54,060 nt of DNA from Rhodocyclaceae bacterium. Its GTDB lineage: Bacteria > Pseudomonadota > Gammaproteobacteria > Burkholderiales > Rhodocyclaceae. Positions 19,578 through 54,060 of this stretch are shown in pieces. The notes below the pieces were generated by a model, which saw only the letters and a program-made list of their open reading frames with translations, was not told the DNA's origin and did no database searches. The stretch covers positions 1-54,060 of the forward strand of contig JAGRGD010000304.1 in the NCBI GenBank assembly GCA_020445665.1, given 5' to 3'. The stretch's first letter is position 1. Each line of letters starts with the position of its first letter. A program made the translations under genes and the position numbers.

Positions 19578-21140
19578 ATGTACCGGGAGCACTTCGGGCT
19601 CGACGAGCCACCCTTCCGCATCACCCCCAACACCGGCTGCTTCTTCGAGGGTGGCAAACGGGGGCCGACCCTCGACGCGCTGGCGTTCGCGGTCCTCCAC
19701 GACGAGGGCATCACCAAGGTCAGCGGCGAGGTCGGCAGCGGCAAGACGATGCTGTGCCGGATGTTGCTCAAGCGCCTGCCCGAGGACGTGGACACCGTTT
19801 ATCTGGCCAACCCGACGTTGGGACCGGACGACCTGCTGCGGCTCGTCGCCGAAGAGCTGTCGATCCAGGCACCGTCGGACAACCCGGGCGTGCGCCTGAT
19901 CGAGATCCAGAAGGATCTGGTCGCCCGTTTCGCCTCGGGGCGCCGCGTCGTCGCCCTGGTGGACGAGGCGCATGCCATGCCCATCGCATCGCTGGAGCAG
20001 ATCCGCCTGCTCTCGAACCTCGAGACGGACGAGCACAAGCTGCTCCAGATCGTGCTCTTCGGCCAGCCCGAGCTCGACGGGATCCTCCAGCGCCAGGCCA
20101 TGCGCCAGCTGCGCGACCGCATCACCCAGCACTTCCGCCTCGCGCCGCTGTCGGCCTCGGAGGTGGGCGCGTACCTGGGCTTCCGCCTGCGCAGCGCCGG
20201 CTTTCGCGGCCCCGATCTCTTCTCGCGCGGCGCGGTGTCGCTGCTGGCCGGCGCCTCGGAGGGCCTCTCCCGGCGCATCAACGTGCTCGCCGACAAGGCG
20301 ATGCTTTCCGCGTATTCAAGGGGCGCACAACAGATCCGGCGGGAACATGTCGCGGAAGCGATCCGCGACGCCGAATACCCCCTGCCCCGTCGACGCTGGC
20401 CGCTTGCGCTGGCGGCGGGGATGGCCGGCCTGGCCCTGGTCGCCTGGCTGGGACTTCAATCGCCCGATCTCGTCGAGACCCTGCTGACGGACAGGCCCGC
20501 CGTAGCGGCCAGTCCCAGCCACATCGCCACCCGCGGCGGCGACGCCATGGCCGACGCGCCAGTGGCGACGCCAACGCCCGCCACGACCCGGGCACCGCAA
20601 GTGTCACCGGCGCCCCCGCCCCCGCAAGCGGCGGCGGCCGACGCGGCCAAGGCGGCCCCGCAACCGGTCACCGAACCGGCACCGCCCGCCACGGCGGCGG
20701 CATCGCCCAATGCGGCACCTGAGCCGTTGCCCGTAGCCGGTGCATCACCGGCGACTTCCGATATCGACGCGCCTGTTCAGGCGGAGGGCGACAGCACGCC
20801 GCCCGCCCCACCGATTGCCCTAGGCCCCGTCGCGGCGACGCTCAATGCGGACACCCCGCGCTGGGTTGCCGAAACGCCGGCCGAGCACTGGTTCATCCAG
20901 CTGCGGACAGTGGACGGTGCCCGCGCCGACGACATCGACCGTTTCATCGACCGCCTGCCCGCCGACGTGGCGCGTGACCAGCTCCGTGTCTACGTGAGGG
21001 ATCTGGGCTGGGGCGCCCGCGTCGGCGTGATTTATGGTGACTTCAGCGAACGTGAGGCCGCCGTTCGCGCCATGCTGGCCCTGCCCGCGCCACTGCGCCG
21101 GGACGGCATTTACCCCCGGCAGGTCCGGGGTTTGCGCTGA
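19578..21140 (+). CDS. mshM: MshM/ExeA-type AAA ATPase with a C-terminal SPOR domain
   Basis: This protein has 520 residues, against roughly 280 for a plain MshM ATPase domain. The ExeA-like start MYREHFGLDEPPF is followed by Walker A GEVGSGKT at 50-57, Walker B VVALVDEAHA at about 124-133 and sensor segments to about 265. A transmembrane helix is at 273-293, then a Pro/Ala-rich periplasmic linker of about 140 residues, then a SPOR-like domain (about 440-520, WFIQLRT...GARVGVIYGDFSEREAA). ExeA proteins use a peptidoglycan-binding tail to help the secretin cross the wall; here a SPOR domain, which binds denuded glycan, appears to do that. It is followed by the secretin gene mshL. Confidence 0.87.
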   Translation: MYREHFGLDEPPFRITPNTGCFFEGGKRGPTLDALAFAVLHDEGITKVSGEVGSGKTMLCRMLLKRLPEDVDTVYLANPTLGPDDLLRLVAEELSIQAPSDNPGVRLIEIQKDLVARFASGRRVVALVDEAHAMPIASLEQIRLLSNLETDEHKLLQIVLFGQPELDGILQRQAMRQLRDRITQHFRLAPLSASEVGAYLGFRLRSAGFRGPDLFSRGAVSLLAGASEGLSRRINVLADKAMLSAYSRGAQQIRREHVAEAIRDAEYPLPRRRWPLALAAGMAGLALVAWLGLQSPDLVETLLTDRPAVAASPSHIATRGGDAMADAPVATPTPATTRAPQVSPAPPPPQAAAADAAKAAPQPVTEPAPPATAAASPNAAPEPLPVAGASPATSDIDAPVQAEGDSTPPAPPIALGPVAATLNADTPRWVAETPAEHWFIQLRTVDGARADDIDRFIDRLPADVARDQLRVYVRDLGWGARVGVIYGDFSEREAAVRAMLALPAPLRRDGIYPRQVRGLR

Positions 21141-21222
21141 CACCGCGATGCGACGGATGCAACCGGAAACACCGAGGGCCTATACCTTAGGTAGGATTGA
21201 AGAAACTGAGGGAGGCGCTACC

Positions 21223-21252
21223 ATGCCCCGACCTGACTGTATAGACACCTGA
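21223..21252 (+). CDS. Possible 9-codon leader peptide upstream of mshL
   Basis: An ATG at 21223 has a strong GGGAGG site about 10 nt upstream. It encodes the nonapeptide MPRPDCIDT and ends with a TGA that directly abuts the mshL ATG. mshL itself has no good ribosome site, so translation of the short frame could feed ribosomes to mshL by re-initiation. No homology can be judged at this length. Confidence 0.35.
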   Translation: MPRPDCIDT

Positions 21253-23052
21253 ATGACACGATTTCCGGCACTCGCGCCCCTCCTCGCATGCCTGCTCAGC
21301 GCCTGCGCGCAGTCGCCGGTAGTCCAGTCACCCGTCTCGGGCCATCTGGCCCTGCCCGATGCCGCCGCCCGACCGGCGCCCGCCGCGCCGATTCCCGCGC
21401 CAGTGACCCAGTCCTTCGATCTGCCGCCGCCCCGTCCGGGCCCCAGGCTCGAGACCTATTCGGTGGTGGTCAGCCAGGTGCCGGTGGACCAGCTGCTCTT
21501 CTCCCTGGCCCGTGACGCCCGCCTCAATGTCGACGTGCACCCCGGCCTGACGGGTCGCGTGACGCTCAACGCCATCGACCAGACCCTGCCCCAGATCCTC
21601 CAGCGCATCAGCCGCCAGGTGGACATGCGCTTCGAACTCGACGGCGAGAGCCTCGCCGTCATGCCCGACACACCGTTCCTGCGGACCTACAAGGTCGACT
21701 ACGTGCTGATGAACCGGGACACCACCGGCACGGTCTCTGTGGCAACGCAGATCGCGTCGGCCGGCACAGGCAGCGTCGGCAGCCAGAACGCGACCGCCAG
21801 CCAGGGCGACCGGGCCGGCAACAGCTCGGCAACGCGCATCGAGAACAGCGCCAGGAACCGCTTCTGGGAAACGCTGATCCAGAACGTCAAGGACATCCTG
21901 CGGGAGACGGACAAGATCCTGCCCGCCCAACCCGAGCCCACAACGACCGCGTCATCCACGCCGGTGTCTTCCGCCGGCAGCGGCACGCCCCAACTCAATC
22001 TCGCCGTCACGCTGGCCCAGCCAGAGGCCCGGTCGGCCGAGCCGGCAACGCGCTTCCGCGAGGCAGCGGCGGTCATTGCGCACCCGGAATCCGGTGTCAT
22101 GGTGGTACGGGCCACCTCCCGCCAGCACGAGCGCGTGCAGGAGTTTCTCGACGCGGTCATTGCCTCGGCCCGGCGCCAGGTGCTGATCGAGGCGACGATC
22201 GCCGAGGTCCAGCTATCCCGCAACTTCCAGCAGGGCATCGACTGGTCGAAACTCGACTTCGGCGGCACCGGCATCCGCCTCGTCCAGAATGCCGCCGGCG
22301 CCCTCACCGCGCCTGCCTCGAGCCTGTTCGAGATCGCCTACCAGGGCAGCGGCGGCTTCTCCGGCAGCATCAAGCTGCTCGAGAGCTTCGGCAACGTGCG
22401 CGTGCTGTCCAGCCCCAAGCTCTCGGTGCTGAACAACCAGACGGCGGTGCTGAAGGTGGTGGACAACATCGTCTATTTCACGATCGAGTCGGACACCAAC
22501 CAGAACCAGACCACCTCGGTCACCACCTTCACGACGCGCGTTAATTCGGTGCCGATCGGCTTTGTCATGAACGTCACGCCCCAGATCTCCGAGCACGATA
22601 CGGTGCTGCTCAACCTGCGCCCGAGCCTCTCAAGGGTGATCGGCGAGGCGGCCGACCCCAACCCGGCCCTCAAGGACCGCAACATCGTCAACACCTTCCC
22701 GGTCATCCGGACCCGCGAGATCGAATCGGTGATCCGGGTCGAGAACGGCAACATCGCGGTGATGGGCGGCCTGATGGAAGACGCGCGCGACGACAAGGAC
22801 GACACCGTCCCGCTGCTCTCCCGGGTGCCGCTGGTGGGCGAACTGTTCATGAACCGGGACGACACCACCACCAAGACTGAACTGGTGATATTCCTGCGCC
22901 CGACCGTGATCCGCAACGCGAGTCTGGATGGCGACTACAGCGCCTTCCGCGACCAACTCCCCGGCGGCGACTTCTTCACCCGGCCAATGGGTCCCGACCA
23001 CCCCAACCTGCGCGGCGCTTCGCCGCTGGCCGCGCCCGCTGCCACCCCATGA
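21253..23052 (+). CDS. mshL: MSHA-type pilus secretin MshL
   Basis: The protein has 599 residues. A lipoprotein signal with LLSAC at residues 14-18 opens it. An STN/secretin N-domain (about 70-150) contains VDQLLFSLARDARLNVDVHP, then a Ser/Thr/Asn-rich linker, and the C-terminal secretin domain (about 350-575) contains VRVLSSPKLSVLNNQTAVLK, NVTPQISEHDTVLLNLRP and VPLVGELF. It forms the outer-membrane pore through which the pilus passes. The downstream gene mshN overlaps it by 4 nt. Confidence 0.93.
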   Translation: MTRFPALAPLLACLLSACAQSPVVQSPVSGHLALPDAAARPAPAAPIPAPVTQSFDLPPPRPGPRLETYSVVVSQVPVDQLLFSLARDARLNVDVHPGLTGRVTLNAIDQTLPQILQRISRQVDMRFELDGESLAVMPDTPFLRTYKVDYVLMNRDTTGTVSVATQIASAGTGSVGSQNATASQGDRAGNSSATRIENSARNRFWETLIQNVKDILRETDKILPAQPEPTTTASSTPVSSAGSGTPQLNLAVTLAQPEARSAEPATRFREAAAVIAHPESGVMVVRATSRQHERVQEFLDAVIASARRQVLIEATIAEVQLSRNFQQGIDWSKLDFGGTGIRLVQNAAGALTAPASSLFEIAYQGSGGFSGSIKLLESFGNVRVLSSPKLSVLNNQTAVLKVVDNIVYFTIESDTNQNQTTSVTTFTTRVNSVPIGFVMNVTPQISEHDTVLLNLRPSLSRVIGEAADPNPALKDRNIVNTFPVIRTREIESVIRVENGNIAVMGGLMEDARDDKDDTVPLLSRVPLVGELFMNRDDTTTKTELVIFLRPTVIRNASLDGDYSAFRDQLPGGDFFTRPMGPDHPNLRGASPLAAPAATP

Positions 23053-24182
23053 GCCTGCTGATCGACGCCCTCAGGAAGGCCGAGGAGCAGAAGCGGCGGG
23101 GGGAACCCGAACGAGCGCTCGGCGCCTCGACACCGGCGCCCGGTGCCGATGCGGCGGCGGCGCGCAAGCTCTTCGAGGTCAAGACCGGGCCGCGCACCCT
23201 GAGCTTTCCGGTCACCGTGGCGCTCCTCACCACCCTCGCGCTGATCGCAATCGGCATCTACTTCTGGCTGCAGATCAGTCCGCCCGGGCCGAGGCTGGTG
23301 GTGCTCACGCCGCCGGTGCTGCCAGCCCAGCCAGAGCCTGCCGCTGCCCTGCCGGAATCCGCGGCTCCTCCCGCGGCCGCCCCGTCTCGCGATACGGTCG
23401 CCTCCGTGGCCCCCGATCCTGCCCCGGCGTCGCCGGCCACCCCGCCCGCAGCCCCGGTCCGCATCCGGCGTGCCGTGCCGCCGGCCCCGAAGCCGGCCGC
23501 CCCGGCCCGGGCCGTCGCCCACGCTTCACCCACCCAGACGACTCCGGCAGCGAAGCCGATCCCGGTGGTGCGCGGCGTGCGCCAGGCGGTGGTTCCACCG
23601 ACGCTCGAGGCCGCCTGGCAAGCCTACCAGGCTGGCGAACTGGCCCGCGCCGCCGGTCTGTACCGCCGCGTGCTCGATACCGACCCACGCAACATCGACG
23701 CCCTGAACGGCATGGGCGCGATCACGGCCCGCGCCGGTGAGCGCGAAGCGGCCGCCGACTGGTTCCGGCGCAGCCTTGGCGCGAAGCCGACCGATGCCAC
23801 CGCCCTCGCCGGCCTGAGCGCCCTTGGCGCCCACGACCCGTCGGAGGCCTCGCCCACCGGCCGACTGAAGTCGGCCGTCGCGAGCCAGCCCGACCAGGCG
23901 GCCCTGCACTTCGCCCTGGGCAATGCGCTCGCCGCGGAGACCCGCTGGGCCGAAGCCCAGTCCAGCTTCTTTCGCGCCTACGGCCTCGACAAGGGCAATC
24001 CGGACTACCTCTTCAATCTCGGTGTCAGCCTCGATCAGTTGGGCAAGCGAACCCTGGCCCTGCGCTTCTACACCGAGGCGCTCGCGGCTGCCCGTGCCCG
24101 CCCCTACGCCTTTGACCCGGCGGCGGTCGAGGCGCGCGTCGCGAGTTTGGCGGAAGCCCCGGCGGAGGCGCCCCGTGACTGA
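23049..24182 (+). CDS. mshN: MshN-like tetratricopeptide protein of the pilus
   Basis: This 377-residue protein begins MSLLIDALRKAEEQKRR, a signature start of MshN and related secretion proteins. A transmembrane helix (about 58-78) is followed by a Pro/Ala-rich periplasmic linker (about 85-175) and TPR repeats from about 180 to the end (AWQAYQAGELARAAGLYRRV, DALNGMGAITARAGEREAA). It probably bridges the inner-membrane assembly and the secretin. The end overlaps mshE by 8 nt. Confidence 0.85.
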   Translation: MSLLIDALRKAEEQKRRGEPERALGASTPAPGADAAAARKLFEVKTGPRTLSFPVTVALLTTLALIAIGIYFWLQISPPGPRLVVLTPPVLPAQPEPAAALPESAAPPAAAPSRDTVASVAPDPAPASPATPPAAPVRIRRAVPPAPKPAAPARAVAHASPTQTTPAAKPIPVVRGVRQAVVPPTLEAAWQAYQAGELARAAGLYRRVLDTDPRNIDALNGMGAITARAGEREAAADWFRRSLGAKPTDATALAGLSALGAHDPSEASPTGRLKSAVASQPDQAALHFALGNALAAETRWAEAQSSFFRAYGLDKGNPDYLFNLGVSLDQLGKRTLALRFYTEALAAARARPYAFDPAAVEARVASLAEAPAEAPRD

Positions 24183-25887
24183 AAACAGCCAGGCCACCGA
24201 GCGCCCCCTCGGCGAAATCCTCGTCGGCACCGGCCTCCTGAGCCGGGACCAGCTCAGCATCGCGCTGATGGAACAGAACCGGCGCCACGAGCCCCTTGGC
24301 CGACTGCTCGTGCACCTGGGTTTCGTGTCCGAGGCGGTACTGCGCGAGGCCCTCTCCGAGTTCCATGGCAAGCAGAGCGTCGACCTCGCCAGCGCGGTCG
24401 CCGACCCGGACGCGCTGGCCCTCGTCCCCCTCGACCTGGCCAAGCGCCACCATGTTTTCCCCCTCTACCTGCGCCGCGGCGAGAACGTGCTGGTGGTGGC
24501 AATCGCCGACATCCACGACGTGGTCGCGCTGGACAAGCTGCGCAACCAGCTGCCGGAGGGCATCCGGGTCGACACCCTGATCGCCGGGGAGTCCGAGATC
24601 GCCCGCGCCATCGACCAGGTCTATGGCCACGAACTGTCCATCGACGGCATCCTCAACGAGATCGAGACGGGCGAGATCGACTACCGCTCGCTGGCCGTGG
24701 TCACCGATGAGTACAGCCAGCCGGTGGTGCGCCTGGTGGATGCCCTGCTGACCGACGCGGTGATGCGCGAGGCCTCGGACATCCACTTCGAGCCCGAGGC
24801 GGGCTTCCTGCGAATCCGCTACCGCCTCGATGGCCTGCTGCGTCAGATCCGCGTCCTGCACAAGTCCTACTGGGCGGCCATCGCGGTGCGTATCAAGGTC
24901 ATGGCGGGGATGAACATCGCCGAGAACCGCGCGCCGCAGGATGGTCGGATATCGCTGACGATCAACGGTCGTCCGGTGGACTTCCGGGTCTCGGCCCAGC
25001 CCACCCTGCACGGGGAGAACCTCGTCCTTCGGGTGCTGGACCGGCAGAAGGGCATCGTACCGCTCGATGGACTCGGCCTGTCCGAACAGCAGCTCGACCT
25101 GCTCAAGCTGATGATCGCCCGGCCCGACGGCCTGATCCTCGTGACCGGCCCGACCGGCAGCGGCAAGACCACCACGCTCTACTCGATCCTCAGCCACATC
25201 AACTCCGAGGGGCTCAACATCATGACCCTCGAGGATCCGGTCGAGTATCCGATGGCGATGATCCGCCAGACCTCGGTCACCGACGCCGCCAAGCTCGACT
25301 TCGCCAACGGTGTCCGCTCAATCCTGCGGCAGGACCCGGACGTGATCCTGGTGGGCGAGATTCGCGACAGCGACACGGCGGAAATGGCCTTCCGGGCTGC
25401 AATGACCGGCCACCAGGTCTATTCGACGCTGCACACCAACTCTGCCGTCGGCGCCATCCCCCGCCTGCTCGACATCGGCATGCTGCCCGACATCGTCGCC
25501 GGCAACATCATCGGCGTCGTCGCCCAGCGCCTGTTGCGCCGGTTGTGCCCCCACTGTCGCGAGGAGACCCCGGCCGAAGCCTGGGAGCTTCGCCTGCTGG
25601 GCCTGCAGCCGGAGCGTGACGCCACCGGCCTGTTCCGAGCGCGCGGCTGCGAACACTGCGACTACCAGGGCTATCGCGGCCGCATGGCGATCATGGAGGT
25701 GATGCGCATGGACAGCGACCTCGACGAGCTCGTCGTCCGCCGCGCCAGCCTGCGAGAGATCCGCACCGCAGCCCGCTCCAAGGGCTTCCGCTCGCTGGCC
25801 GAGGACGGCATGCGCCGGGTGCTCGACGGTGAGACCTCCCTCGACGAACTGGCGCGGGTCGTGGACCTGACCGAGCGGATGACCTGA
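24175..25887 (+). CDS. mshE: Pilus assembly ATPase MshE with a c-di-GMP-binding N-terminus
   Basis: The protein has 570 residues from the GTG at 24175, inside the end of mshN. The N-terminus carries the tandem MshEN motif: R10-P-L-G...G20...L27...A30-L31 then L41-G42...G49...L57...A59-L60. This motif binds cyclic-di-GMP in MshE and PilB-type ATPases. The ATPase has Walker A GPTGSGKTT, an Asp box, Walker B ILVGEIRD and a His box. A zinc-binding tetracysteine (CPHC...CEHC) is near 450-490. It powers pilus extension. No PilT-type retraction ATPase is visible in the locus. Confidence 0.93.
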   Translation: MTENSQATERPLGEILVGTGLLSRDQLSIALMEQNRRHEPLGRLLVHLGFVSEAVLREALSEFHGKQSVDLASAVADPDALALVPLDLAKRHHVFPLYLRRGENVLVVAIADIHDVVALDKLRNQLPEGIRVDTLIAGESEIARAIDQVYGHELSIDGILNEIETGEIDYRSLAVVTDEYSQPVVRLVDALLTDAVMREASDIHFEPEAGFLRIRYRLDGLLRQIRVLHKSYWAAIAVRIKVMAGMNIAENRAPQDGRISLTINGRPVDFRVSAQPTLHGENLVLRVLDRQKGIVPLDGLGLSEQQLDLLKLMIARPDGLILVTGPTGSGKTTTLYSILSHINSEGLNIMTLEDPVEYPMAMIRQTSVTDAAKLDFANGVRSILRQDPDVILVGEIRDSDTAEMAFRAAMTGHQVYSTLHTNSAVGAIPRLLDIGMLPDIVAGNIIGVVAQRLLRRLCPHCREETPAEAWELRLLGLQPERDATGLFRARGCEHCDYQGYRGRMAIMEVMRMDSDLDELVVRRASLREIRTAARSKGFRSLAEDGMRRVLDGETSLDELARVVDLTERMT

Positions 25888-25890
25888 GCG

Positions 25891-27093
25891 ATGGCGGTGT
25901 ATGCCTACAAGGCCATGAACCCGGACGGCCAGGTCGTTCGCGGCGAGATGGAGGCCATCAACTTCGTCGATCTCGAGATGCGTCTCAAACGCATGGAGCT
26001 CGACTTCATCAACGGCGCGCCGGCCAGCCACGCCTTGCTCGTCCGAAGCACCCCGGTGCCGCGCCGCGAGCTGATCAACTTCTGCTTCCACCTCGAGCAG
26101 CTGCGCCGCGCCGAGGTCCCCATCCTGGAGGGCCTGTCGGACCTGCGCGACTCCACCGATCATCCCCGCTTCCGCGAGATCATGGCCGGCGTCGTCGAAG
26201 GCATCGAGGGCGGCAAGAACCTCTCCGACGCGCTCGAGGACTACCCCCAGGCCTTCGACCCGGTGTTCTGCAACCTGGTCCGCGCCGGCGAGGCTTCCGG
26301 CAACCTGCCCCATGTGCTGCGCGACCTGGCTGAATCCCTCAAGCGGGACGACGAGCTCGCGGCCTACGCCAAGCGCATCGTGATCTACCCGTCGATCGTC
26401 CTCGCCATCCTGTTCTTCGCCGTCGTCATCGCCCTGCTCTTCGTGGTGCCCCAGCTCGAGCAGCTCTTCCGCAGCACCGGCCAGGAGCTGCCGCTGCAGA
26501 CTCGCATCCTGGTCGCCAGTTCGGAGCTGCTCCAGGCACACTGGCCATGGCTGCTCGCCGGCATCGCCGTCGCCACCGTCGGAACGACCGCCGCCGTGCT
26601 CCGATCGCCCTGGCTGCGCCTGCAGTTCGACGCGATGCTGCTGCGTCTGCCCCTCTACGGCGAGATCCGCCGCAAGATCATCATGGCCCGCTTCGCCGGC
26701 CTGTTTGCCATGCTCTACGCCTCGGGCATTCCGATCATCGAGGCGCTGCGCAACACCGAACGGGTCGTCGGCAGCCGCGTGATCCAGCGCGCCCTGCAAC
26801 GCATCGGACGCCACATCGCCGAGGGTCAGAATGTCTCGACGGCATTCGCCGGCTCCAACCTGTTTCCGCCGCTGGTCACCCGGATGCTGCGGGTTGGCGA
26901 GAACACCGGGGCCCTCGACGCCGCCCTGGCCAACCTGCGCTATTTCTATGACCGGGATGTGCAGGAATCCACAGAGCGCCTGCAGGCCGTCCTCGAGCCG
27001 GTGCTGATCCTCGTCCTGGCCGCCTTCATGGTGTGGATCGCGATGGCCGTGGGCGGCCCGATCTACGACATCATCGCGACCCTGCCGGTCTGA
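25891..27093 (+). CDS. mshG: Inner-membrane pilus platform protein MshG (GspF/PilC family)
   Basis: This 400-residue protein has two GspF domains (about 65-190 and 270-390), with motifs LEQLRRAEVPILEGLSDLR, FCNLVRAGEASGNLP, LYASGIPIIEALRN and MLRVGENTGALDAAL. Hydrophobic helices lie at about 165-190, 215-235 and 370-395. It forms the inner-membrane platform that couples the MshE motor to pilin insertion. It starts 3 nt after mshE. Confidence 0.93.
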   Translation: MAVYAYKAMNPDGQVVRGEMEAINFVDLEMRLKRMELDFINGAPASHALLVRSTPVPRRELINFCFHLEQLRRAEVPILEGLSDLRDSTDHPRFREIMAGVVEGIEGGKNLSDALEDYPQAFDPVFCNLVRAGEASGNLPHVLRDLAESLKRDDELAAYAKRIVIYPSIVLAILFFAVVIALLFVVPQLEQLFRSTGQELPLQTRILVASSELLQAHWPWLLAGIAVATVGTTAAVLRSPWLRLQFDAMLLRLPLYGEIRRKIIMARFAGLFAMLYASGIPIIEALRNTERVVGSRVIQRALQRIGRHIAEGQNVSTAFAGSNLFPPLVTRMLRVGENTGALDAALANLRYFYDRDVQESTERLQAVLEPVLILVLAAFMVWIAMAVGGPIYDIIATLPV

Positions 27094-27098
27094 CGTCG

Positions 27099-28616
27099 AT
27101 GCCGAATCGCCATTACCTCTACGTCACCAACGAAGGCCTGCGCTGGTATCGCGTACAGGGCGGCCAGCCTCAACTCGTCGAGCGTTTCGGCGCCGACGAG
27201 GCGGGCTTTGCCGACTTCGGCAGGCAGCTCGCGGCGATGCCGCGGCGAAGCCGCTACAGCGTGCTGGTGGACGTGCCGGACGAAGGCTTCCACTTCGAGC
27301 TGCTGCCATCGACCCGCGGCCGGGACCGGGAAGCCATGCTGGGCCGCAAGCTCGCGCAGCAGTTCTATGGCTCGCCCTACACGGCGAGTCTCGCACTCGG
27401 CCGCGAGAAGCAGGGCCGGCGCGACGAGCGCGTGCTGCTCTCGGCCCTGACCCGCCCGGCTCAGCTCGACCCGTGGATCGGCGCGCTGGTCTCGGCGCGG
27501 GTGCGGGTGCGCGGGGTGCATAGCGTGCCCTTCCTGCTCGACCGCATCATGGCGCGGGCGCGCCTCCCGGCCGACGCCTACCTTCTGGTCAATTTCTCGC
27601 CGGCGGGCATCCGCCAGACCTACTTCCAGGGGGGGCGCGTGCGCTTTTCCCGGCTGTCCGGAACGCCGGGGCAGGAATTCGAGCTCAGCGTCGCGCAGGC
27701 CGGCGAGGAGGTCGGGCGCAGCCTGGCCTATCTGGCCGCCCAGCGCATGACCCGCCGGGGCGAGAACCTGCCGGTGGTCGGGCTGCTCCCGGGCGTGCAG
27801 TACGAGGCGTTTGCCACGGCAGTCGATGCGGCCACCGACGCGGACACCCTGCTCGCCGACACCGGCCGACTGCAGGGCAGCTATGGCGCCCCCGAATCGC
27901 GCGGCTGCGGCGCGGACAGCCTGCCGCTGCTCCTCAACGCGCTGGGAGGCGAGCCCCAGTGCCTGCAGATCGGCGGTACCGAGGTGTTGCGCTTTCAGCG
28001 CCTCCACCAGATCCGCAAGGGCCTCTATCTGGGTGCCCTGGCGATCCTCGCCGGTGGCGCGGCGATCGCAGGGCTCGGCTACCTGGAGACCCGCGCACTG
28101 GCCCGCGAGCAAACCGAGCTGCTGGCCCTGGTGCAGAGCGAGAACGCGCGCCACGCCGCGCTGATGCGGCGCCTGCCGCCCCTGCCCGCCCCGCCCGACA
28201 CGCTCACCCACCTGGTCGACGAGCTGGCCCGCGTAGAGCAGCAGCGGGTCCCGCCGCTGACCGTCTTCCAGGCGCTCTCCGGCGCCCTTGACCAGCTCCC
28301 GGAGATCACCCTCGAGAGTCTCGAGTGGGGCATCGACGAGCGAGAGACGGATGGCGTCCCGGTCGATGTGGCGGTCTTCGCGCGACTGGCGCTGCCTGTC
28401 GGGATGAGCGGTGACGCCCGCGCCCAGCTGGACGCCAGCGAGCGCTTCGTGCGCGAACTGGCCCGCGCCAGCGGGCGCCCGGTGCGCCTGGTGCGGCGAC
28501 CGGTGGCGCTGCAGTCGAACGAAACCCTGCGGGGCAGCGAGGGCCGCAGTGCCCAGTCCCCCAGCGCCGCCTCCTTTGAGGTGGCGTTCACCCTCACCGC
28601 CGAGGCCGGAAAGTGA
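27099..28616 (+). CDS. mshI: MshI-like pilus assembly protein (PilM/PilN-like fusion)
   Basis: This 505-residue protein starts at the ATG 27099, 5 nt after mshG. Residues 1-300 look like an actin-fold PilM/GspL-type cytoplasmic domain (LPVVGLLPGVQYEAFA region). A single transmembrane segment at about 312-332 (YLGALAILAGGAAIAGLGYL) is followed by a coiled and periplasmic PilN-like part. Sequence conservation in this family is low; the call rests on architecture and on the position between mshG and the two small membrane and exported proteins. Confidence 0.7.
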   Translation: MPNRHYLYVTNEGLRWYRVQGGQPQLVERFGADEAGFADFGRQLAAMPRRSRYSVLVDVPDEGFHFELLPSTRGRDREAMLGRKLAQQFYGSPYTASLALGREKQGRRDERVLLSALTRPAQLDPWIGALVSARVRVRGVHSVPFLLDRIMARARLPADAYLLVNFSPAGIRQTYFQGGRVRFSRLSGTPGQEFELSVAQAGEEVGRSLAYLAAQRMTRRGENLPVVGLLPGVQYEAFATAVDAATDADTLLADTGRLQGSYGAPESRGCGADSLPLLLNALGGEPQCLQIGGTEVLRFQRLHQIRKGLYLGALAILAGGAAIAGLGYLETRALAREQTELLALVQSENARHAALMRRLPPLPAPPDTLTHLVDELARVEQQRVPPLTVFQALSGALDQLPEITLESLEWGIDERETDGVPVDVAVFARLALPVGMSGDARAQLDASERFVRELARASGRPVRLVRRPVALQSNETLRGSEGRSAQSPSAASFEVAFTLTAEAGK

Positions 28617-29200
28617 TCGCCGCGAGCGACCTGCCCCGCCTCAAGTGGCCGCTCCTCGCGATCGGGCTCGCTGTCGCCGTCGCAGCGGCCCTGGTATGGA
28701 CCATCGATCAGCAGCGTGCCCGCGGCCTGACCGCCCTGGCCGACGCCCAGCGCGCCTATCGGGAGGCTCACGCCCGCTACATCGGCGCCCAGCGCGATGA
28801 GGATCTGCTCCGGGACGTCCTCGGCCGCTTCTCGATGCTCGAGCTGCGCGGTCTGGTGGGCGAGGAGCGGCGCCTCGACTGGGTGGAGCGCATCCGCAAT
28901 GCCCGCAGCAGCGCGGGGCTCGCGCAGCTCGACTTCGAGCTGCGACCGAGGCGCTCGCTGGGCCCCGTGCGGGCCGGATCGCTCGAGATGACAGCGAGCA
29001 CCATGCATCTCTCGACGTCCGTCCGGCATGAGGGGAAACTGTTGCAGTTTCTCGATACCATTCTCGATGAGAACAGCGCGGCACCCCGCATCGCCCATTG
29101 CCGTATGGCACGGGGTGAAGACGACGAGAGGGAGCGCGCCCTGGAGGTCGAATGCAATCTGGACTGGATCACCATACGCAAGACGGACCCCGCGTCATGA
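28613..29200 (+). CDS. MshJ/PilO-like inner-membrane pilus protein
   Basis: This 195-residue protein starts at a GTG that overlaps the preceding stop by 4 nt. One N-terminal transmembrane helix (about 13-32, LAIGLAVAVAAALVW) is followed by a helical region (about 40-105) and a short alpha/beta periplasmic domain. That is the PilO/GspM-like layout expected for MshJ. The identification is by architecture and order; no diagnostic motif was recognised. Confidence 0.6.
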   Translation: MIAASDLPRLKWPLLAIGLAVAVAAALVWTIDQQRARGLTALADAQRAYREAHARYIGAQRDEDLLRDVLGRFSMLELRGLVGEERRLDWVERIRNARSSAGLAQLDFELRPRRSLGPVRAGSLEMTASTMHLSTSVRHEGKLLQFLDTILDENSAAPRIAHCRMARGEDDERERALEVECNLDWITIRKTDPAS

Positions 29201-29565
29201 GGCGTAGCCACCTGACCCTGGCGCTCGCCATCGGCTGCCTGGCGGGGCTCGCGGGCGCGGCCGAACCGGACAGCTTCGGCCGCCTCTTCTTCAGCCCCGC
29301 CGAGCGGCTCGAGCGCGATCGCCCTCGAGCCGAGGCCCCTGCTGCCCCCGTCGTCGCAGCCCCGATCGACCTCGGCCCGATGCGCCTGGACGGCATCGTG
29401 CGCCGCAGCGACGGCACCACGGTGATCTGGATCGACGGCGCGCCGGCTGAGCCGTCGGCCGCGGTGGTGGGCCAGGATGGCCGCAGCGCGACCCTCGCCT
29501 TGCCCGACGGCCGCCAACACCACCTGCTGGTGGGGGAATCGGTGCTGCCCGACAGCAGTCGATGA
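29197..29565 (+). CDS. Small exported pilus-locus protein (MshK/PilP-like)
   Basis: This 122-residue protein has a signal peptide (HLTLALAIGCLAGLAGA, cleavage near AGA-AEP). The mature part has an Ala/Pro-rich linker and a short beta-rich C-terminal half with LDGIVRRSDGTTVIWIDG, which resembles the GspC/PilP homology-region pattern. ATGA overlaps occur on both sides. The role as MshK is inferred from gene order. Confidence 0.6.
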   Translation: MRRSHLTLALAIGCLAGLAGAAEPDSFGRLFFSPAERLERDRPRAEAPAAPVVAAPIDLGPMRLDGIVRRSDGTTVIWIDGAPAEPSAAVVGQDGRSATLALPDGRQHHLLVGESVLPDSSR

Positions 29566-30725
29566 GGGACCAGCAGGGTTTCATCCTGCCGCTCCTGCTC
29601 GCCCTGCTGTTTGTCGGCGGTCTGCTCTACCACTTTGATGCCGAGCGCCTCGCCACCGACCTCGAGCGGACCCGCCTCGAGCGCACACGCAGCGCCCTCG
29701 CCGAGGCCCGCGAGGCCCTGATCGCCCACGCCATCACCTACGACCTGACCCACGCCGCCACCAACCCGCGCCTCGGATTGCTGCCCTGCCCGGATGCCAA
29801 CGGCGATGGCAGCGCCGACGGGGCCTGCGACGGCAGGGACGAGGCCTCCCTCGGCCGCCTGCCCTACCGCACGCTGTCCCTGCCGCGCATCCTGGACGGC
29901 GACGGGGAGTGCCTGTGGTATGCAGTGGCCGGCCGTATCAAGAACAACCTCGCCAGCGACGCCTCCCTCAACTGGGACACGCCGGGTCAATTCACCCTGA
30001 CCGGACTCACCGGCGCGGACCTGCTGGGCGGCGCACCGAACCGGGCGGTGGCCGTCCTGATTGCCCCGGGCAAGCCCCTCGCGGGCCAGATCCGCGGGGT
30101 CGGCACGGCGGTCTGCGGGTCGGGCAGCGCAGCGGCCGGCGAGCGCACCGCGTACCTCGAAGGCACGCCCGCGATGGCCACGCCAGCGATGCTCACGATC
30201 CAGCAAGGGGACCCCCGATCCGCGACCAACAACGACGTGGTGGCGTGGATCACGATCGACGATATCTACGACCGAGCGTCACGGATGAGTACCTTCGGCC
30301 CCTACCTGGGCACGATCACCGATGCCATCGCGGCCAACCATCTGGCCATTCCCCTGCCTGGCCCGAACGGCGAAGCTCTGCCGACCGGCGACACCGGTTT
30401 CATCGGCCCGGTCGGCCCGGTGGACGCAGAGGACATGGCCCGCCGGTATCTCGACTGGCAGGCCATGTACCACTATCTGCGCTGCGCGCCGAACGGTGCC
30501 GGCGTGATCCCTCAATGCATGGAACTGGCCGGTGCGCCCTGCCGGGCCATCCTGGCGTTTGGCGGCCGGCGAACGACCGGCCAGACCCGACCCGGTACGT
30601 CGCTGGCCGACTATTTCGAGGACGCCACCCTCGACGCGCTCACCAGCGCGCCCCACACCTTCGACGGGCCGACCGACTGGAACCCGTCTGCGCCCGAAGC
30701 GGACATCCTCCGATGCCTCAACTGA
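29562..30725 (+). CDS. Large pilin-like protein without Glu5, probable minor (tip) pilin
   Basis: This 387-residue protein starts MRDQQGFILPLLLALLFVGG, a prepilin-type leader with a G/F cleavage point and a hydrophobic helix. The Glu at mature position 5, needed for ordinary pilin polymerisation, is replaced by Leu. Large size and loss of Glu5 are features of GspK/PilX-type tip pseudopilins. A segment ALIAHAI...LPCPDANGDG...GRLPYRTLSLP is shared in weaker form with the next gene, so the two are related. Several Cys residues suggest disulfides. It overlaps the next gene by 13 nt. No firm family name can be given. Confidence 0.65.
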   Translation: MRDQQGFILPLLLALLFVGGLLYHFDAERLATDLERTRLERTRSALAEAREALIAHAITYDLTHAATNPRLGLLPCPDANGDGSADGACDGRDEASLGRLPYRTLSLPRILDGDGECLWYAVAGRIKNNLASDASLNWDTPGQFTLTGLTGADLLGGAPNRAVAVLIAPGKPLAGQIRGVGTAVCGSGSAAAGERTAYLEGTPAMATPAMLTIQQGDPRSATNNDVVAWITIDDIYDRASRMSTFGPYLGTITDAIAANHLAIPLPGPNGEALPTGDTGFIGPVGPVDAEDMARRYLDWQAMYHYLRCAPNGAGVIPQCMELAGAPCRAILAFGGRRTTGQTRPGTSLADYFEDATLDALTSAPHTFDGPTDWNPSAPEADILRCLN

Positions 30726-31405
30726 CCTCGCGCCATGCGCGCCCCCCGCAGGGTGGATTCACCCTCGTCGAACTGGCCGTCACGCTGCTCGTGGTAACCA
30801 TCCTCGCCAGCATGCTGCTGATCCCGCTCACCGGCCGCGAGGCAATCCGCACGCGACAGGAAACCGGTCGCCAGCTCGAAGCGATTCGTGAGGCCCTGAT
30901 CGGCTACGCCATCATCCACGGTTCGCTACCCTGCCCGACCCACGAAACCAACCCCGCATCGGTCGATTATGGGCTGCCCGACGCCAGCTGCAACCAGACT
31001 GTCGAGGGTTACCTCCCGTGGCGGATCCTCGGCCTGCCACAGACGGACGCCTGGGGCGTGACGCGGCTGGCGCCCGGAGATCCCTGGCTGGGCTACTGGC
31101 GCTACCGGGTCGTCCCCATTCTTGCAGTGGATGGCACCCCGATCCAGGCCACGACAGTCCCCGACCTCGACCTCGACGTGCGCGACGTGGTGACCGGGCA
31201 GCTGATGGTGGACGACAAGGCACTCGCGGCGCTGGTGTATTCGACCGGTCCGGATCGCACCGCGAACGGAGACAACGCGAGCTTTGAGGCCGGTGCCAGT
31301 GCGATCTACAGCATGGGCGGCCCGACGACGACTTTCGACGATCAGCTGGCATGGATCAGTCATCCCGAACTGATCGCCCGCCTGGCGGCCGCCGGCCGGC
31401 TCTAG
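30713..31405 (+). CDS. Type IV pilin-like (prepilin) protein with the LPCP...GYLPWRILGLP signature
   Basis: The protein has 230 residues. The prepilin leader ends in PPQG, followed by GFTLVELAVTLLVVTILAS with Glu5 present. After the alpha-1 helix come EALIGYAI, LPCPT, GYLPWRILGLPQTDAWG and YWRYRV. The pattern resembles the alpha/beta core of pseudopilins. It is last in the pilus operon; 87 bp with a promoter-like element follow before the cyclase gene. No prepilin peptidase gene is in the window, so processing must rely on one elsewhere. Confidence 0.78.
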   Translation: MPQLTSRHARPPQGGFTLVELAVTLLVVTILASMLLIPLTGREAIRTRQETGRQLEAIREALIGYAIIHGSLPCPTHETNPASVDYGLPDASCNQTVEGYLPWRILGLPQTDAWGVTRLAPGDPWLGYWRYRVVPILAVDGTPIQATTVPDLDLDVRDVVTGQLMVDDKALAALVYSTGPDRTANGDNASFEAGASAIYSMGGPTTTFDDQLAWISHPELIARLAAAGRL

Positions 31406-31474
31406 GGTCTGTCTGCGTAGGCGCGGCCGCACATCGGAAACGATTGCTCAAGCACGGCCGGGATCGGCAGCACG

Positions 31475-31492: not shown

Positions 31493-32791
31493 GTGAACAC
31501 ACCCCCTATGCGCCAGGCCCCCCTCGCCGAGGCCGACGGGGCCGCGAGTTACTCGGCGCGCCTCCGCAATGCCGGCATCCTCCCGACCGACGACGACGAC
31601 ACGCGCCTGTCGAAGTCGCTGCTGGTGTTTGCCACCGGCTTGGTCAGCGTCGCCGCCGGCCTGTGGCTGCTGATCTACTGGAGCATGGGTCCGCGACTCT
31701 CATCGACCCTGACCCTGACCTTCCAGCTGCTGCTCGCAGCCAATCTGGCCCTCTATCTGAAGAGTGGTCACTTCGCCTGGTTCCGACTGACGCAGCTGGC
31801 GCTGTTCCTGTTCTTTCCCTTCGTCGCGCAGTGGAGCATCGGCAACTTCATCACCGGCTCCGGCCTGATCCTGTGGGGATTGCTGGCCCCGATCGGCGCC
31901 GCGTTATGCATGGGTGCGCGGGAGTCCACGCCATGGTTCTTCGCCTACCTGTTCCTCACCGGCCTGACCGGCTTTTTCGACTACTACCTGGCCGAACTGG
32001 CGAGCCCCGAAGCGGCGCAGATTCCGATCCGCACCTCGGTGGTCTTCTTCGTGCTGAACTTCGCCACCATCTCGATCATCGTCTATGCGCTGCTGCGCTT
32101 CTCGATCGGGCAGAAGCGCATCGCCGAGGACCGCCTGCGCCAGGCCCATACCGACCTTCTGGAGGAGCAGGCCCGCTCCGAACGCCTGCTCCTCAACATC
32201 CTGCCGGCGCCGATTGCGCGTCGGCTCAAGGACAGCAACGAGACGATTGCGGACGGATTCCCGGAAGTCACGGTGATGTTTGCGGACATCGTCAACTTCA
32301 CCCAGCTCGCCGGTGACATGACCGCCCAGCAGGTCTTCCGGATGCTCAACGGCGTGTTCTCGCGCTTCGACGAACTGGCCGACGAACAAGGCCTCGAGAA
32401 GATCAAGACGATTGGCGACGCCTACATGGTCGCCGGCGGGCTGAGCCAGGGGCAGAGCGACGCGCCGGCGGCCATAGCCCGCCTGGCGCTCGCCATGGGC
32501 GACGCGGCGCGTGCCTGCGATGCGCACCCCGAAGTGGCCCTGCGCATCGGGATCTGCACCGGCCCGGTGGTGGCCGGCGTGGTCGGTCGCAAGAAGTTCA
32601 TCTACGACCTGTGGGGCGACACGGTCAATATCGCGAGCCGGCTCTCGTCGGAGGGCAAACCCGGCGGCATCCTGTGCGACGCGCGTACCCGGACACTGCT
32701 CGCTCAGTCCTTCCGCTTCGACTCGCCCGAGGTGGTCTCGCTCAAGGGCAAAGGCCCTGTCACCATCAGCCGGCTGCTCGGCCCCTGCTGA
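31493..32791 (+). CDS. Membrane-anchored class III adenylate cyclase
   Basis: The protein has 432 residues from the GTG, or 427 from the ATG at 31508. About five to six membrane helices (42-200) lead into a coiled segment (about 205-235) and a class III cyclase domain (about 255-430). Metal ligands D265 (FADIVNF) and D309 (GDAYM) are present. The base-selecting pair is K305 (EKIKTIG) and D372 (YDLWG), the adenine-type combination rather than the Glu/Cys of guanylate cyclases. N379 and R383 for the transition state are also present. The product should therefore be cAMP. Its 3' end overlaps the convergent kinase gene by 88 nt. It sits within the pilus locus; cAMP control of pili is known elsewhere, but the link here is inferred. 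Confidence 0.88.
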   Translation: MNTPPMRQAPLAEADGAASYSARLRNAGILPTDDDDTRLSKSLLVFATGLVSVAAGLWLLIYWSMGPRLSSTLTLTFQLLLAANLALYLKSGHFAWFRLTQLALFLFFPFVAQWSIGNFITGSGLILWGLLAPIGAALCMGARESTPWFFAYLFLTGLTGFFDYYLAELASPEAAQIPIRTSVVFFVLNFATISIIVYALLRFSIGQKRIAEDRLRQAHTDLLEEQARSERLLLNILPAPIARRLKDSNETIADGFPEVTVMFADIVNFTQLAGDMTAQQVFRMLNGVFSRFDELADEQGLEKIKTIGDAYMVAGGLSQGQSDAPAAIARLALAMGDAARACDAHPEVALRIGICTGPVVAGVVGRKKFIYDLWGDTVNIASRLSSEGKPGGILCDARTRTLLAQSFRFDSPEVVSLKGKGPVTISRLLGPC

Positions 32792-34488
32792 GACGACAGG
32801 CGCGACAGTTCGATCACCACATCGCCTGGCTCGTTGCGGAGCAGCGTCAGCCGGTAGCCCGCCCGCTGCGCGAGCCGGGAAGCCTGATACAGGCCCATGC
32901 CGAAGCCCTGTTCCGAGCGCACGGGCTGGAGCAACAACACCTTCGCAAGCTCCGGCGGTATCGCACTGCCCGCGTCGGATACCCGAAGCCGCCCGCTGCC
33001 GTCCAGTTCGACCTGAATGCCAATGCCCGGCTCGAGTCGGCGCTTGGCGATCGCGTTGTGCAGCAGGTTGTCGAGGCAGGAGTCGTAGAGCTCCCGAGGC
33101 ACCTCGGAATCGGCCGGGCCCAGATCCGCGAGGAAGCGGATCCGCTGGCCCTCATGGCGGGCACAGGCCTCCTGCCACCAGTCGGCGATATTGACCTGAG
33201 TCAGAGAAGTCTCCTCGGGCTGCCGGAGCTTCTCCAGCGTGTTCTCCAGGCGGGCCGTGATCTGCGGCAACTGGCTGCGCAGCAGTCGCTGCAGGGCCGT
33301 CGCGTCGGCATCCGGGCGCGCCGCGGCGAAGCACAGAGTGCTCAGTGACTGCAGCAGGTTCTTGACGTCGTGGGTCAGTCGCGCGCCGGTCTCGTGCACT
33401 GCCGTCTCGAAGGACTTCACCTGCAGCAGACGGGTCTGGCATTTCTCGCGGTAGAACTCCGCAAGCACCAGCAGCATCAGGTTGTACTGCCACTGGAGTC
33501 CTTCCACCGGCCGACGGCTGAAGGACAGGGTGACCTCGAGCCCGACATGGTGGTAGGTCTCGCAGTGCCCGCCCTCCCGCCCGAAGCGCTGCGCAACGGC
33601 ATCGCTCTCGTTGCGCCAGCTGCCGCCCAGCACGCCGGGAAAGCGTTGCAGATCCTGCATGGCCTGCGCCAGAAAGACGTCCGGATCCTGCTGCTCGACG
33701 ACCAGCCGCGACAGGTCCTGCAGCCAATGCTCGAACGACAGCCCGGATGAGAGCATGCGTCGCGACAACTGGATGCCCAGTCCAGCGTGCCCCACCCGCG
33801 GATGCCACGCCCAGGCCAGCACGAACAGGGCCGACGCCATGCCGAACAGCGCCAGGGCGAGGGACCGGAAATAGGGCAACTGCTCGACCTGCATCAGGGC
33901 CAGGGTCCCGAGCAGGGTCACGGCGAGCACCAGGAAGATCATCAGTGCCGAGAGCAGGTCGATGCCACCGAGCGTGCGCGGATCGAAATCCGCCTCCACC
34001 GGAAAGAAGGCAATCGCCAGGGCCATCAGCGGCAGGCCAATGCGGGTCAGCAACGAGAACTGGGCCAGTTCCTCAGCCGGTACGTCCAGCACGTCGGGCA
34101 GCAGGACCAGCACCATGAACAGCATCAGCAGACCCAGCGCCAGCAGATAGGGCAAGCGGCCAGCGGTCGACGCCGCGATAAAGGAACGTCCACCAATCAT
34201 CGCCGTGATGACCATCACCCAGGCGGCCAGGAGGCCGGATGACATGGCCAGCAGGAAGCCGGTCAGCACCGCGAACAGCAGCATCAGGTCCACCGTACCC
34301 AACCGGTAGTTGGGGCGGACGACCGGCTGCCACAGCAGAAACAGGCCCAGGTGTACGAGGATCAGGTAGCGCCCGGCCTCGCTGGCGGGCCCACTCGCAA
34401 AGCCGGCGACGAGCACGAGCAGCGACGCTGACAGCAACAGCTGCCGACGCTCGATCAACTCTGCCACGCGTTCCTTCAGTCGTGTCAT
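32704..34488 (-). CDS. Membrane sensor histidine kinase, PrsK-like
   Basis: The protein has 594 residues from the ATG at 34488. About seven membrane helices (18-228) are followed by a GAF-like region (about 250-345) and a kinase core with the phosphoacceptor H373 in LTHDVKNLLQSL. The ATPase has an N-box (LDNLLHNAI), a G1 box (VSDAGSAIP) and a G2 box (GFGMGLYQA). The layout and the HDVKNLLQ-type H-box resemble PrsK kinases of PEP-CTERM systems, which pair with PrsR regulators such as the one at 18071. No receiver gene is adjacent. It is divergent from the pilin gene at 34727 and convergent with the cyclase gene. Confidence 0.85.
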   Translation of the reverse strand: MTRLKERVAELIERRQLLLSASLLVLVAGFASGPASEAGRYLILVHLGLFLLWQPVVRPNYRLGTVDLMLLFAVLTGFLLAMSSGLLAAWVMVITAMIGGRSFIAASTAGRLPYLLALGLLMLFMVLVLLPDVLDVPAEELAQFSLLTRIGLPLMALAIAFFPVEADFDPRTLGGIDLLSALMIFLVLAVTLLGTLALMQVEQLPYFRSLALALFGMASALFVLAWAWHPRVGHAGLGIQLSRRMLSSGLSFEHWLQDLSRLVVEQQDPDVFLAQAMQDLQRFPGVLGGSWRNESDAVAQRFGREGGHCETYHHVGLEVTLSFSRRPVEGLQWQYNLMLLVLAEFYREKCQTRLLQVKSFETAVHETGARLTHDVKNLLQSLSTLCFAAARPDADATALQRLLRSQLPQITARLENTLEKLRQPEETSLTQVNIADWWQEACARHEGQRIRFLADLGPADSEVPRELYDSCLDNLLHNAIAKRRLEPGIGIQVELDGSGRLRVSDAGSAIPPELAKVLLLQPVRSEQGFGMGLYQASRLAQRAGYRLTLLRNEPGDVVIELSRLSSQQGPSSRLMVTGPLPLSETTSGESKRKD

Positions 34489-34549
34489 GCCAGCCGCCCA
34501 AACCCTGCATCCCGCTGCCATTTTACGGAGTCGCCATCCCGGCGCACCC

Positions 34550-34606
34550 TGTCGACGCCTCGACAAGGTGTCGAAAAATCGTCAGGCAAGTGTCGAAATC
34601 TCGACA
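34550..34606. promoter_or_regulatory. Twin palindromes TGTCGA-N4-TCGACA, probable activator binding sites
   Basis: Two identical-arm palindromes lie at 34550-34565 and 34591-34606, 41 bp apart (about four helical turns), with a further half-site TGTCGA at 34569-34574. They are in the 238-bp divergent region between the kinase and pilin genes, about 75-131 bp upstream of the predicted pilin transcription start. This is the normal distance for sigma-54 enhancer sites. The binding protein is not known; the PrsR-like regulator is the best candidate. Confidence 0.7.
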
Positions 34607-34654
34607 GATGACAGCAAAATTGGGATTCCCCACCCAGAATCCGTATCCAGTTCT

Positions 34655-34670
34655 GCGCACGGATATTGCT
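34655..34670 (+). promoter_or_regulatory. Candidate sigma-54 (-24/-12) promoter of the orphan pilin
   Basis: GCGCACG at 34655-34661, then 4 nt, then TTGCT at 34666-34670 match 14 of 16 positions of the consensus TGGCACG-N4-TTGCW. The -12 GC is intact; the -24 GG reads CG, a weakness. Transcription would begin near 34681, 46 nt before the ATG. Confidence 0.5.
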
Positions 34671-34726
34671 TATTACACAATATAACAACATCACGCGCCA
34701 CGCCCTGGCGCCTGCGAGAACCCACC

Positions 34727-35365
34727 ATGAAACGCACCCAAGCCGGCTTCACCCTGGTCGAGATCGCCGTCGTTCTGGTCATCATCGGCCTGCTCCTCGG
34801 TGGCGTGCTGAAGGGCCAGGAGCTCATCAACAGCGCCAAGGCGAAGAGCCTGATCAACGACTTCCGCTCGGTGTCGACGATGATCTACGCCTTTCAGGAC
34901 CGTTTCCGCTTCCTGCCCGGCGACGATCCCAAGGCCGACGCCCATCTGGGCACCGGCATGCTCGCCACGACGCCGGCCGGCGCCCAGGGCAACGGACGCA
35001 TCGAGGGCGCCTGGGACTCCGCTACCAACACCGACGAGTCCTTCCGCGTCTGGCTGCATGTGCGCACGGCGGGCCTGACCACCGGCCCCGTGGTCCTGAG
35101 CGACCCCGACTACATCCCGAGAAATGCCGAGAATGGTCCGATCGGCGTGACCGGCGTGGCGCCGTTCACCGGCATGGCCGGCTCGTTCTTCGTCTGCTCG
35201 GGGCGCATCAACGCCCGCTTCGCCCGCCAGATCGATGCCGCCCTGGACGATGGCGTCACCAACACCGGCATCGTCCGCGCCGGCACCACCGGCGGCAACG
35301 CGACGGCGCTCGCTCCGTCCAACGAAGGCGACGGCAACGTCCACACCGTTTGTGTCTCCTACTGA
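34727..35365 (+). CDS. Type IV pilin-like protein (prepilin N-terminal domain), orphan pilin of the locus
   Basis: This 212-residue protein has a very short leader KRTQAG, then FTLVEIAVVLVIIGLLLGG with Glu5. LKGQELINSAKAKSLINDF and the FRFLPGDDP motif follow, typical of a family of betaproteobacterial pseudopilin-like proteins. Two C-terminal Cys residues could form a disulfide. It stands alone, divergent from the histidine kinase, behind paired palindromes and a -24/-12-like promoter. It may be the abundant pilin subunit, since separate strong regulation fits a major subunit, but that is inference. Confidence 0.82.
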   Translation: MKRTQAGFTLVEIAVVLVIIGLLLGGVLKGQELINSAKAKSLINDFRSVSTMIYAFQDRFRFLPGDDPKADAHLGTGMLATTPAGAQGNGRIEGAWDSATNTDESFRVWLHVRTAGLTTGPVVLSDPDYIPRNAENGPIGVTGVAPFTGMAGSFFVCSGRINARFARQIDAALDDGVTNTGIVRAGTTGGNATALAPSNEGDGNVHTVCVSY

Positions 35366-53934: not shown

Positions 53935-54060
53935 TGTTGCTGCGCGTTGAAAATTGAGCAGTTTTCGGGGGTGATGTGCGCCGAAAATTGACCAGGGTGA
54001 TTCACTCGCCTGCTCGTTTCTTGAGCGGGTCTATCGAGGATGATCACCATGAACATGCTG
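53935..54060 (+). mobile_element. Left end of a probable IS21-type insertion sequence
   Basis: From the TG at 53935, two similar boxes, GAAAATTGAGCAG (53949-53961) and GAAAATTGACCAG (53983-53995), recur 34 bp apart. Such repeated terminal boxes are typical of IS21-family ends. An ATG at 54049 behind GAGGATGATCACC opens a frame (Met-Asn-Met-Leu) at the edge, in the place where istA would start. The element interrupts the integrase. The rest is outside the window, so the family call is tentative. Confidence 0.6.

Follow-up and report, generated by a model that had tools for sequence, protein, structure and literature searches.

A candidate sigma-54-dependent pilin promoter with clustered upstream palindromes beside a divergent histidine kinase gene in a Rhodocyclaceae bacterium

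Palindromes and a candidate promoter between the kinase and pilin genes

How a pilin gene standing back to back with a histidine kinase gene may be controlled is the question raised by positions 34489-34726 of a 54,060-nucleotide stretch from a Rhodocyclaceae bacterium (GenBank assembly GCA_020445665.1, contig JAGRGD010000304.1; this whole stretch is referred to as the window), which separate a histidine kinase gene read leftwards (32704-34488) from a prepilin gene read rightwards (34727-35365). Our comparisons suggest that this gap is quite probably a sigma-54-dependent pilin promoter with an upstream cluster of activator sites, run by a dedicated kinase-regulator pair. The features concerned are as follows.

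34550..34565, no strand assigned: distal palindrome TGTCGACGCCTCGACA, exact match, 105 nt upstream of the -24/-12 box; proposed activator site
34569..34584, no strand assigned: middle palindrome TGTCGAAAAATCGTCA, one mismatch, 86 nt from the -24/-12 box
34591..34606, no strand assigned: proximal palindrome TGTCGAAATCTCGACA, exact match, 64 nt from the -24/-12 box; proposed activator site
34655..34670, + strand: candidate -24/-12 (sigma-54) box GCGCACGGATATTGCT, 9 of 11 specified bases, GG of the -24 element broken
34727..35365, + strand: prepilin gene (212 aa), TIGR02532 at 23.9 bits over a cut-off of 16.3, PF07963, with a syntenic homologue beside the kinase
32704..34488, - strand: PrsK-like membrane histidine kinase, TIGR02916 at 57.8 bits (cut-off 300), HATPase_c; proposed sensor
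18071..19573, + strand: NtrC-type response regulator with Response_reg, Sigma54_activat and HTH_8 domains; proposed activator

An earlier note on this DNA had reported TGTCGA-N4-TCGACA twice, at 34550-34565 and 34591-34606; both copies are indeed exact, with starts 41 bp apart, and what it took for a half-site between them is a nearly full palindrome with a single mismatch, giving three sites. It had noted no other full copy in intergenic DNA, and the window as a whole holds no further exact match. With up to 2 mismatches, 4 matches were found against 2.21 expected, 3 of them inside the gap and the remaining one (2 mismatches) at 37521. In the source genome as searched (4.79 Mb, 341 contigs, 93.65% complete), the exact palindrome occurred 3 times, twice in the gap and once, on contig C337, within an open frame of 1693 aa, and the reversed control pattern did not occur. 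When one mismatch was allowed, 9 places were found (the listing gives each place once per strand, and places were counted), 3 of which lay in one 57-bp part of the gap, compared with 2 for the reversed control. This rarity supports the reading of the palindromes as activator sites.

A sigma-54 promoter was taken to require the GG of the -24 element and the GC of the -12 element ten bases apart, in a context close to TGGCAC-N5-TTGCW. The box at 34655-34670 stands where it had been placed, and its match of 14 out of 16 had been obtained by counting five unspecified positions; the real score is 9/11, with the GG broken. Because 17 sites with 2 mismatches were present in the window against 21.85 expected, the window box alone carries no weight, and the significance of this single site was rejected, a score of 9/11 being at chance level. 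The 46-nt leader was reproduced with the ATG at 34727 and the start placed 12 nt past the C of the -12 GC (34669). An rpoN gene is present in the source genome.

Conservation of the sites in related genomes

The search for the kinase covered 61 genomes from the same genus, family or order and found it at E <= 1e-60 in 37 of them, the window's own included, with the next best match at 1.2e-9. A scan of named genomes gave two loci, one of which was a true orthologue, in the sister metagenome-assembled genome Rhodocyclaceae bacterium HKST-UBA161. For 30 of the 37 loci (30 genomes) a prepilin gene was located within 700 nt, and up to 300 nt before the pilin start was analysed, with the first aligned kinase residue as the far limit, which may leave some kinase coding sequence inside. 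The other seven were excluded, one (G027) lying at a contig end, five (G038, G041, G046, G047 and G048) having no pilin within 1.5 kb and one (G058) having its pilin 952 nt away.

Conservation of the palindromes in the orthologous divergent regions had been set beforehand as a refuting test, and a search of the whole and related genomes for palindromes next to -24/-12 motifs had been proposed. Palindromes of at least 10/12 were kept in 20 of the 30 gaps, the mean for dinucleotide shuffles being 0.33 and the maximum 3 in 300 rounds; the best score per gap was 12 in 6, 11 in 10, 10 in 4, 9 in 6, 8 in 3 and 7 in 1. The -24/-12 box, scored on 11 positions within the final 110 nt before the pilin with C or T accepted at the sixth base, reached at least 10/11 facing the pilin in 24 of the 30 gaps (shuffle mean 0.10, maximum 2), the best scores being 11 in 9, 10 in 15 and 9 in 6 gaps. 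On the opposite strand, no gap of the 30 had a box of at least 10/11, either in the same 110 nt or in the whole stretch. Measured against the definition given above, most orthologous regions thus have a box of at least 10/11, and the box of the window, at 9/11 with its GG broken, agrees with it in part.

The spacing between the two elements was also recurrent, since the best palindrome started 64-68 nt before the box in 11 of the 20 regions, with offsets of 55, 78, 79, 86, 89, 105, 106, 120 and 125 nt in the others. The distal site of the window, at 105 nt, has counterparts at 105-106 nt in genomes G002, G003 and G035, and the middle one, at 86 nt, has counterparts of at least 10/12 at 86-89 nt in G004, G022, G015 and G012. 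Pairwise identity of the palindrome arms was left unused, because it is biased by the selection of sites of at least 10/12. In five of the seven excluded loci a pilin homologue was found elsewhere in the stretch; a box of at least 10/11 was present in 3 of these 5, and their palindromes were weak (best 8-10/12) and off the usual spacing, except in G047 (62 nt).

In the wider class, a kinase relative was found at E <= 1e-40 in 37 of 273 other genomes, and the 11 of these loci that were examined had no pilin within 1.3 kb (or a shorter stretch) and no palindrome of at least 10/12. In the sample examined, the pilin arrangement was therefore seen only within the order.

The kinase and the regulator

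The kinase has an HDVKN motif and about 6 hydrophobic segments, and the H[DE]xKN motif is kept by all 37 kinases. Its score places it outside PrsK as defined by TIGR02916, and 6TM_PilS (PF25323) was looked for in it by a Pfam scan that returned HATPase_c only. The pilin had been called an orphan in the earlier note, a label that is wrong because its divergent neighbour is this kinase gene and because relatives keep the pilin in synteny with a cluster of pilus genes.

The regulator gene at 18071, which had been noted as part of the pilus operon, heads the pilus cluster, and its product is of the NtrC type, with PF00072, PF00158 and PF02954 and the loop GSFTGA, but it is a relative of PrsR only (TIGR02915, 316.4 bits against a cut-off of 502.6), the true PrsR of the source genome being encoded at C94:18171-19496. 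A GAFTGA-type loop was found in all 32 regulator orthologues (27 GAFTGA, 4 GSFTGA and 1 GAFTGS), and the helix-turn-helix (HTH) segment is near-constant over the 32 orthologues listed. In a tree of 21 sequences, seven 18071-type regulators were separated, with a support of 1.000, from 4 PilR, 3 PrsR, 4 NtrC and 3 NifA sequences; the PilR and NtrC labels were assigned by us from adjacency to 6TM_PilS matches and from similarity, and the C-terminus of the NifA frame of G000 did not read as an HTH. The 18071 regulator thus lies outside the clade of regulators beside PilS (support 1.000).

A close regulator orthologue (at least 494 bits; next homologue listed, 301) was present in 39 of the 61 genomes, that is, in all 37 genomes with the kinase and in 2 of the 24 without it (G013 and G021). 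We infer that the kinase and the regulator form one two-component system and that the 18071 regulator reads the palindromes.

Proposed circuit and points against it

In the proposed circuit, the membrane kinase (32704-34488) would receive a signal and phosphorylate the NtrC-type regulator (18071-19573), which would bind the upstream TGTCGA-N4-TCGACA palindromes; the distances from their centres to the presumed start, about 82, 104 and 123 bp, are usual for enhancer-binding proteins. The bound regulator would then loop to the RpoN holoenzyme at 34655-34670, which would start transcription of the pilin gene (34727) in an RpoN-dependent manner. The prepilin at 34727-35365, the presumed target, is likely to be the main pilin.

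The earlier note had further spoken of a self-contained regulon, which is too strong because none of the regulator-upstream stretches (up to 400 nt, 32 genomes) carried a palindrome of at least 10/12; these 32 stretches, which served as a matched control for the pilin gaps, held no -24/-12 box of at least 10/11 either. Each starts at the first aligned residue and may include as much as about 60 nt of coding sequence. The idea that the palindromes also govern the regulator's own cluster was accordingly rejected. Since they apparently do not drive the assembly cluster, the circuit would set the pilin supply for the MSHA-type pilus. As a whole, the idea of a sigma-54 pilin circuit is supported by the conserved sites, the direction of the box and the co-occurrence of the proteins, with the amendments that there are three sites, that the pilin is not an orphan and that the regulator is not PrsR.

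Several observations weigh against this interpretation. The GG of the -24 element is broken in the source genome and also in the closest sister genome, G003, so that the promoter may be weak here. Ten of the 30 gaps are devoid of a palindrome of at least 10/12, and the regions are not independent, because five of the 30 besides the window's belong to the same genus; after removal of these five, 15 of the 20 palindrome regions remained. Helical phasing is weak, the mean vector for the 20 best sites being 0.53 at 10.5 bp and no sharper than at 10 or 12 bp, and the signal is driven by the cluster at 64-68 nt. Two genomes carry the regulator without the kinase, namely G021, which is 79% complete and whose regulator contig (locus L102) is only 8.2 kb long, and G013 (locus L101), for which 19.9 kb was inspected and yielded only the regulator, the ATPase and a neighbouring ABC gene, the later pilus genes being unrecognised. 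Finally, in G010, G024, G057 and G060 the kinase gene lies far from the regulator gene or on another contig.

Other possible readers of the palindromes

Two pattern searches of the 61 genomes bear on the identity of the reader. The pattern TGTC-N8-GACA before GGCAY-N6-TGC was found at 49 places in 27 genomes (reversed control, 1), of which 11, judged by position, precede this pilin; the window's own site is absent from this set because its GG is broken. Inspection of 30 of the 49 loci revealed 10 pilin loci, many TGTCGC-type sites before presumed nif genes (labels read from N-termini) and a few that were neither. The stricter pattern TGTCGAA-N3-YCGACA gave 16 distinct places (17 rows, one place being found on both strands; reversed control, 7), 9 before this pilin and 7 elsewhere, and the flanks of these 7, taken to about 234 nt each way, held no -24/-12 box of at least 9/11. 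These results suggest one main target for whichever protein reads the palindromes; a pattern as strict as this overlooks variant sites, so that a wider regulon is possible.

PilR or another NtrC-family regulator might read the sites, the 18071 protein then having other targets. PilR controls pilin genes elsewhere, one report (PMC6058289) names NifA-like TGT-N11-AGA and GTCT elements as hallmarks of PilR, and PilS is encoded in the source genome on contig C172 (C172:19240-19755). However, 6TM_PilS is present in 55 of the 61 genomes, far more than the 37 with this kinase, and it is the 18071 orthologue that tracks the kinase, which makes a PilR-type reader unlikely. Very improbable is a second explanation, in which the palindromes serve as operators, either for the kinase gene or for a repressor unrelated to the circuit, and the -24/-12 box is there by coincidence: they do fall 62-118 nt before the ATG of the kinase gene, and the box is weak in the window, but it is conserved and faces the pilin only, and the spacing of 64-68 nt between palindrome and box recurs in 11 of the 20 regions, whereas the distance between palindrome and kinase varies.

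NifA, which would place the pilin in the nitrogen-fixation regulon, is encoded in the source genome, and the palindromes lie upstream of a -24/-12 promoter and fit TGT-N10-ACA, which we take to be the consensus of the NifA upstream activator sequence; TGTCGC-type sites before presumed nif genes were moreover returned by the same motif-plus-promoter search. It was nevertheless ruled out as the general reader, because 7 of the 20 palindrome genomes (G007, G009, G015, G017, G024, G033 and G052; completeness of G007 and G009, 83-84%) had no NifA match at E <= 1e-130, and the pattern TGTCGAA-N3-YCGACA was absent from 6 genomes with NifA and without the kinase (G011, G013, G014, G031, G034 and G050). 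The present sites also differ in having TGTCGA instead of the TGTCGC common before nif-like genes, and control by NifA is accordingly hard to credit. At loci L070, L076, L081, L082, L084-L086, L089, L091 and L093, TGTC-N8-GACA sites of the TGTCGC type were seen 38-68 nt before a -24/-12 box, upstream of nif-like genes; these are likely to be NifA sites and provide a useful internal control.

The PrsR of the exosortase (PEP-CTERM) system, although truly encoded in the source genome and having known targets in which motif 1 lies about 63 nt before the sigma-54 motif (PMC1569441), is scarcely conceivable as the reader and was ruled out, because a TIGR02915 match is absent from 8 of the 20 palindrome genomes (G006, G007, G009, G015, G022, G028, G030 and G033) the published motif 1 ends in TTTACA, and the 18071 family has an HTH unlike that of PrsR.

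Relation to known systems

The predicted regulation by the kinase at 32704 and the regulator at 18071 can be compared with three described systems. In Pseudomonas aeruginosa, the membrane kinase PilS and the NtrC-type regulator PilR act with sigma-54 at the pilA promoter (PMC6058289), and a membrane kinase and an NtrC-type regulator are here likewise predicted to act with sigma-54 on a pilin promoter. Unlike in that system, 1) the present kinase has no 6TM_PilS match, PilS being a separate gene in the source genome, 2) the present regulator falls in another clade and the pilus is of the MSHA type, and 3) the kinase and pilin genes are divergent neighbours while the regulator gene lies inside the assembly cluster. 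The Nps/Npa system of commensal Neisseria, with an upstream activator sequence and an RpoN promoter at the main pilin gene pilE (PMC6528607), is similar in layout, having a two-component system, upstream activator sites and a predicted RpoN promoter at a pilin gene, whereas the kinase and regulator genes are separate in the present locus. PrsK-PrsR regulates PEP-CTERM genes, with a palindrome-like motif about 63 nt before the sigma-54 motif (PMC1569441; PrsK-PrsR also PMC9850573); the present kinase and regulator are distant relatives with a similar palindrome-to-box layout, but both are below the family cut-offs, the PrsR motif has the different ending mentioned above, and the target is a pilin instead of a PEP-CTERM protein. 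An RpoN-linked pilA has also been described in Ralstonia (PMC4371752). No description of the present circuit was found in a literature search judged by titles and abstract openings, subscription journals being mostly outside its coverage. The predicted circuit is thus new and of a known kind, together with PilSR-pilA and Nps/Npa-pilE, and its proteins fail the tested features of PilS, PrsK and PrsR.

For the MSHA-type pili of Rhodocyclaceae and of other families in the order, the prediction offers candidates for the sensor, the regulator, the DNA site and the target gene. It puts forward TGTCGA as the DNA specificity of an undescribed clade of the NtrC family, and it sets the circuit apart from the NifA, PrsR and PilR systems, which are similarly laid out and belong to the same genome. 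It is conceivable, though doubtful, that it constitutes a pilin-inventory feedback, in which the PrsK-like kinase would monitor inner-membrane pilin and its supply would be reset by the regulator through an essentially single-target TGTCGA-N4-TCGACA enhancer, independently of PilSR. If so, sigma-54 control of pilin supply would have arisen more than once, from different kinases.

The MSHA-type pilus cluster and neighbouring genes

The genes between the regulator and the kinase are listed below.

19578..31405, + strand: MSHA-type pilus assembly cluster (ATPase, MshL, TPR protein, MshE-like, MshG-like, small pilus proteins and a second prepilin-like gene)
30713..31405, + strand: second prepilin-like gene (230 aa), overlapping a spurious reverse-strand frame at 30926-31432
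31493..32791, + strand: adenylate/guanylate cyclase-domain membrane protein, PF00211 at 173.5 bits, syntenic

The assignment to the MSHA type is based on an MshL secretin (TIGR02519, 257.2 bits over a cut-off of 250.2) and an MshE-type ATPase (MshE-related cyclic di-GMP domain NF053729, 60.7 over 38), the only two markers scored; the genes at 27033-30725 had no family match, and their Msh names were given by position. The order regulator, ATPase, MshL, TPR protein, MshE-like, MshG-like, further pilus genes, kinase and pilin was kept in all 12 regions compared, which had been picked since the kinase and regulator were near each other on one contig; a few small genes were unrecognised in single genomes.

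The cyclase gene at 31493-32791 was kept between the pilus cluster and the kinase in 10 of the 12 fetched syntenic regions, and its product might provide a cyclic-nucleotide link to the pilus. It was also noticed that the assembly ATPase (23923-25887, + strand) carries the MshE-related domain for cyclic di-GMP binding above the curated cut-off, so that the activity of the pilus may be under second-messenger control as well. Elsewhere in the window, positions 52650-53957 (+ strand) encode a 435-aa protein with an N-terminal match to DUF6538.
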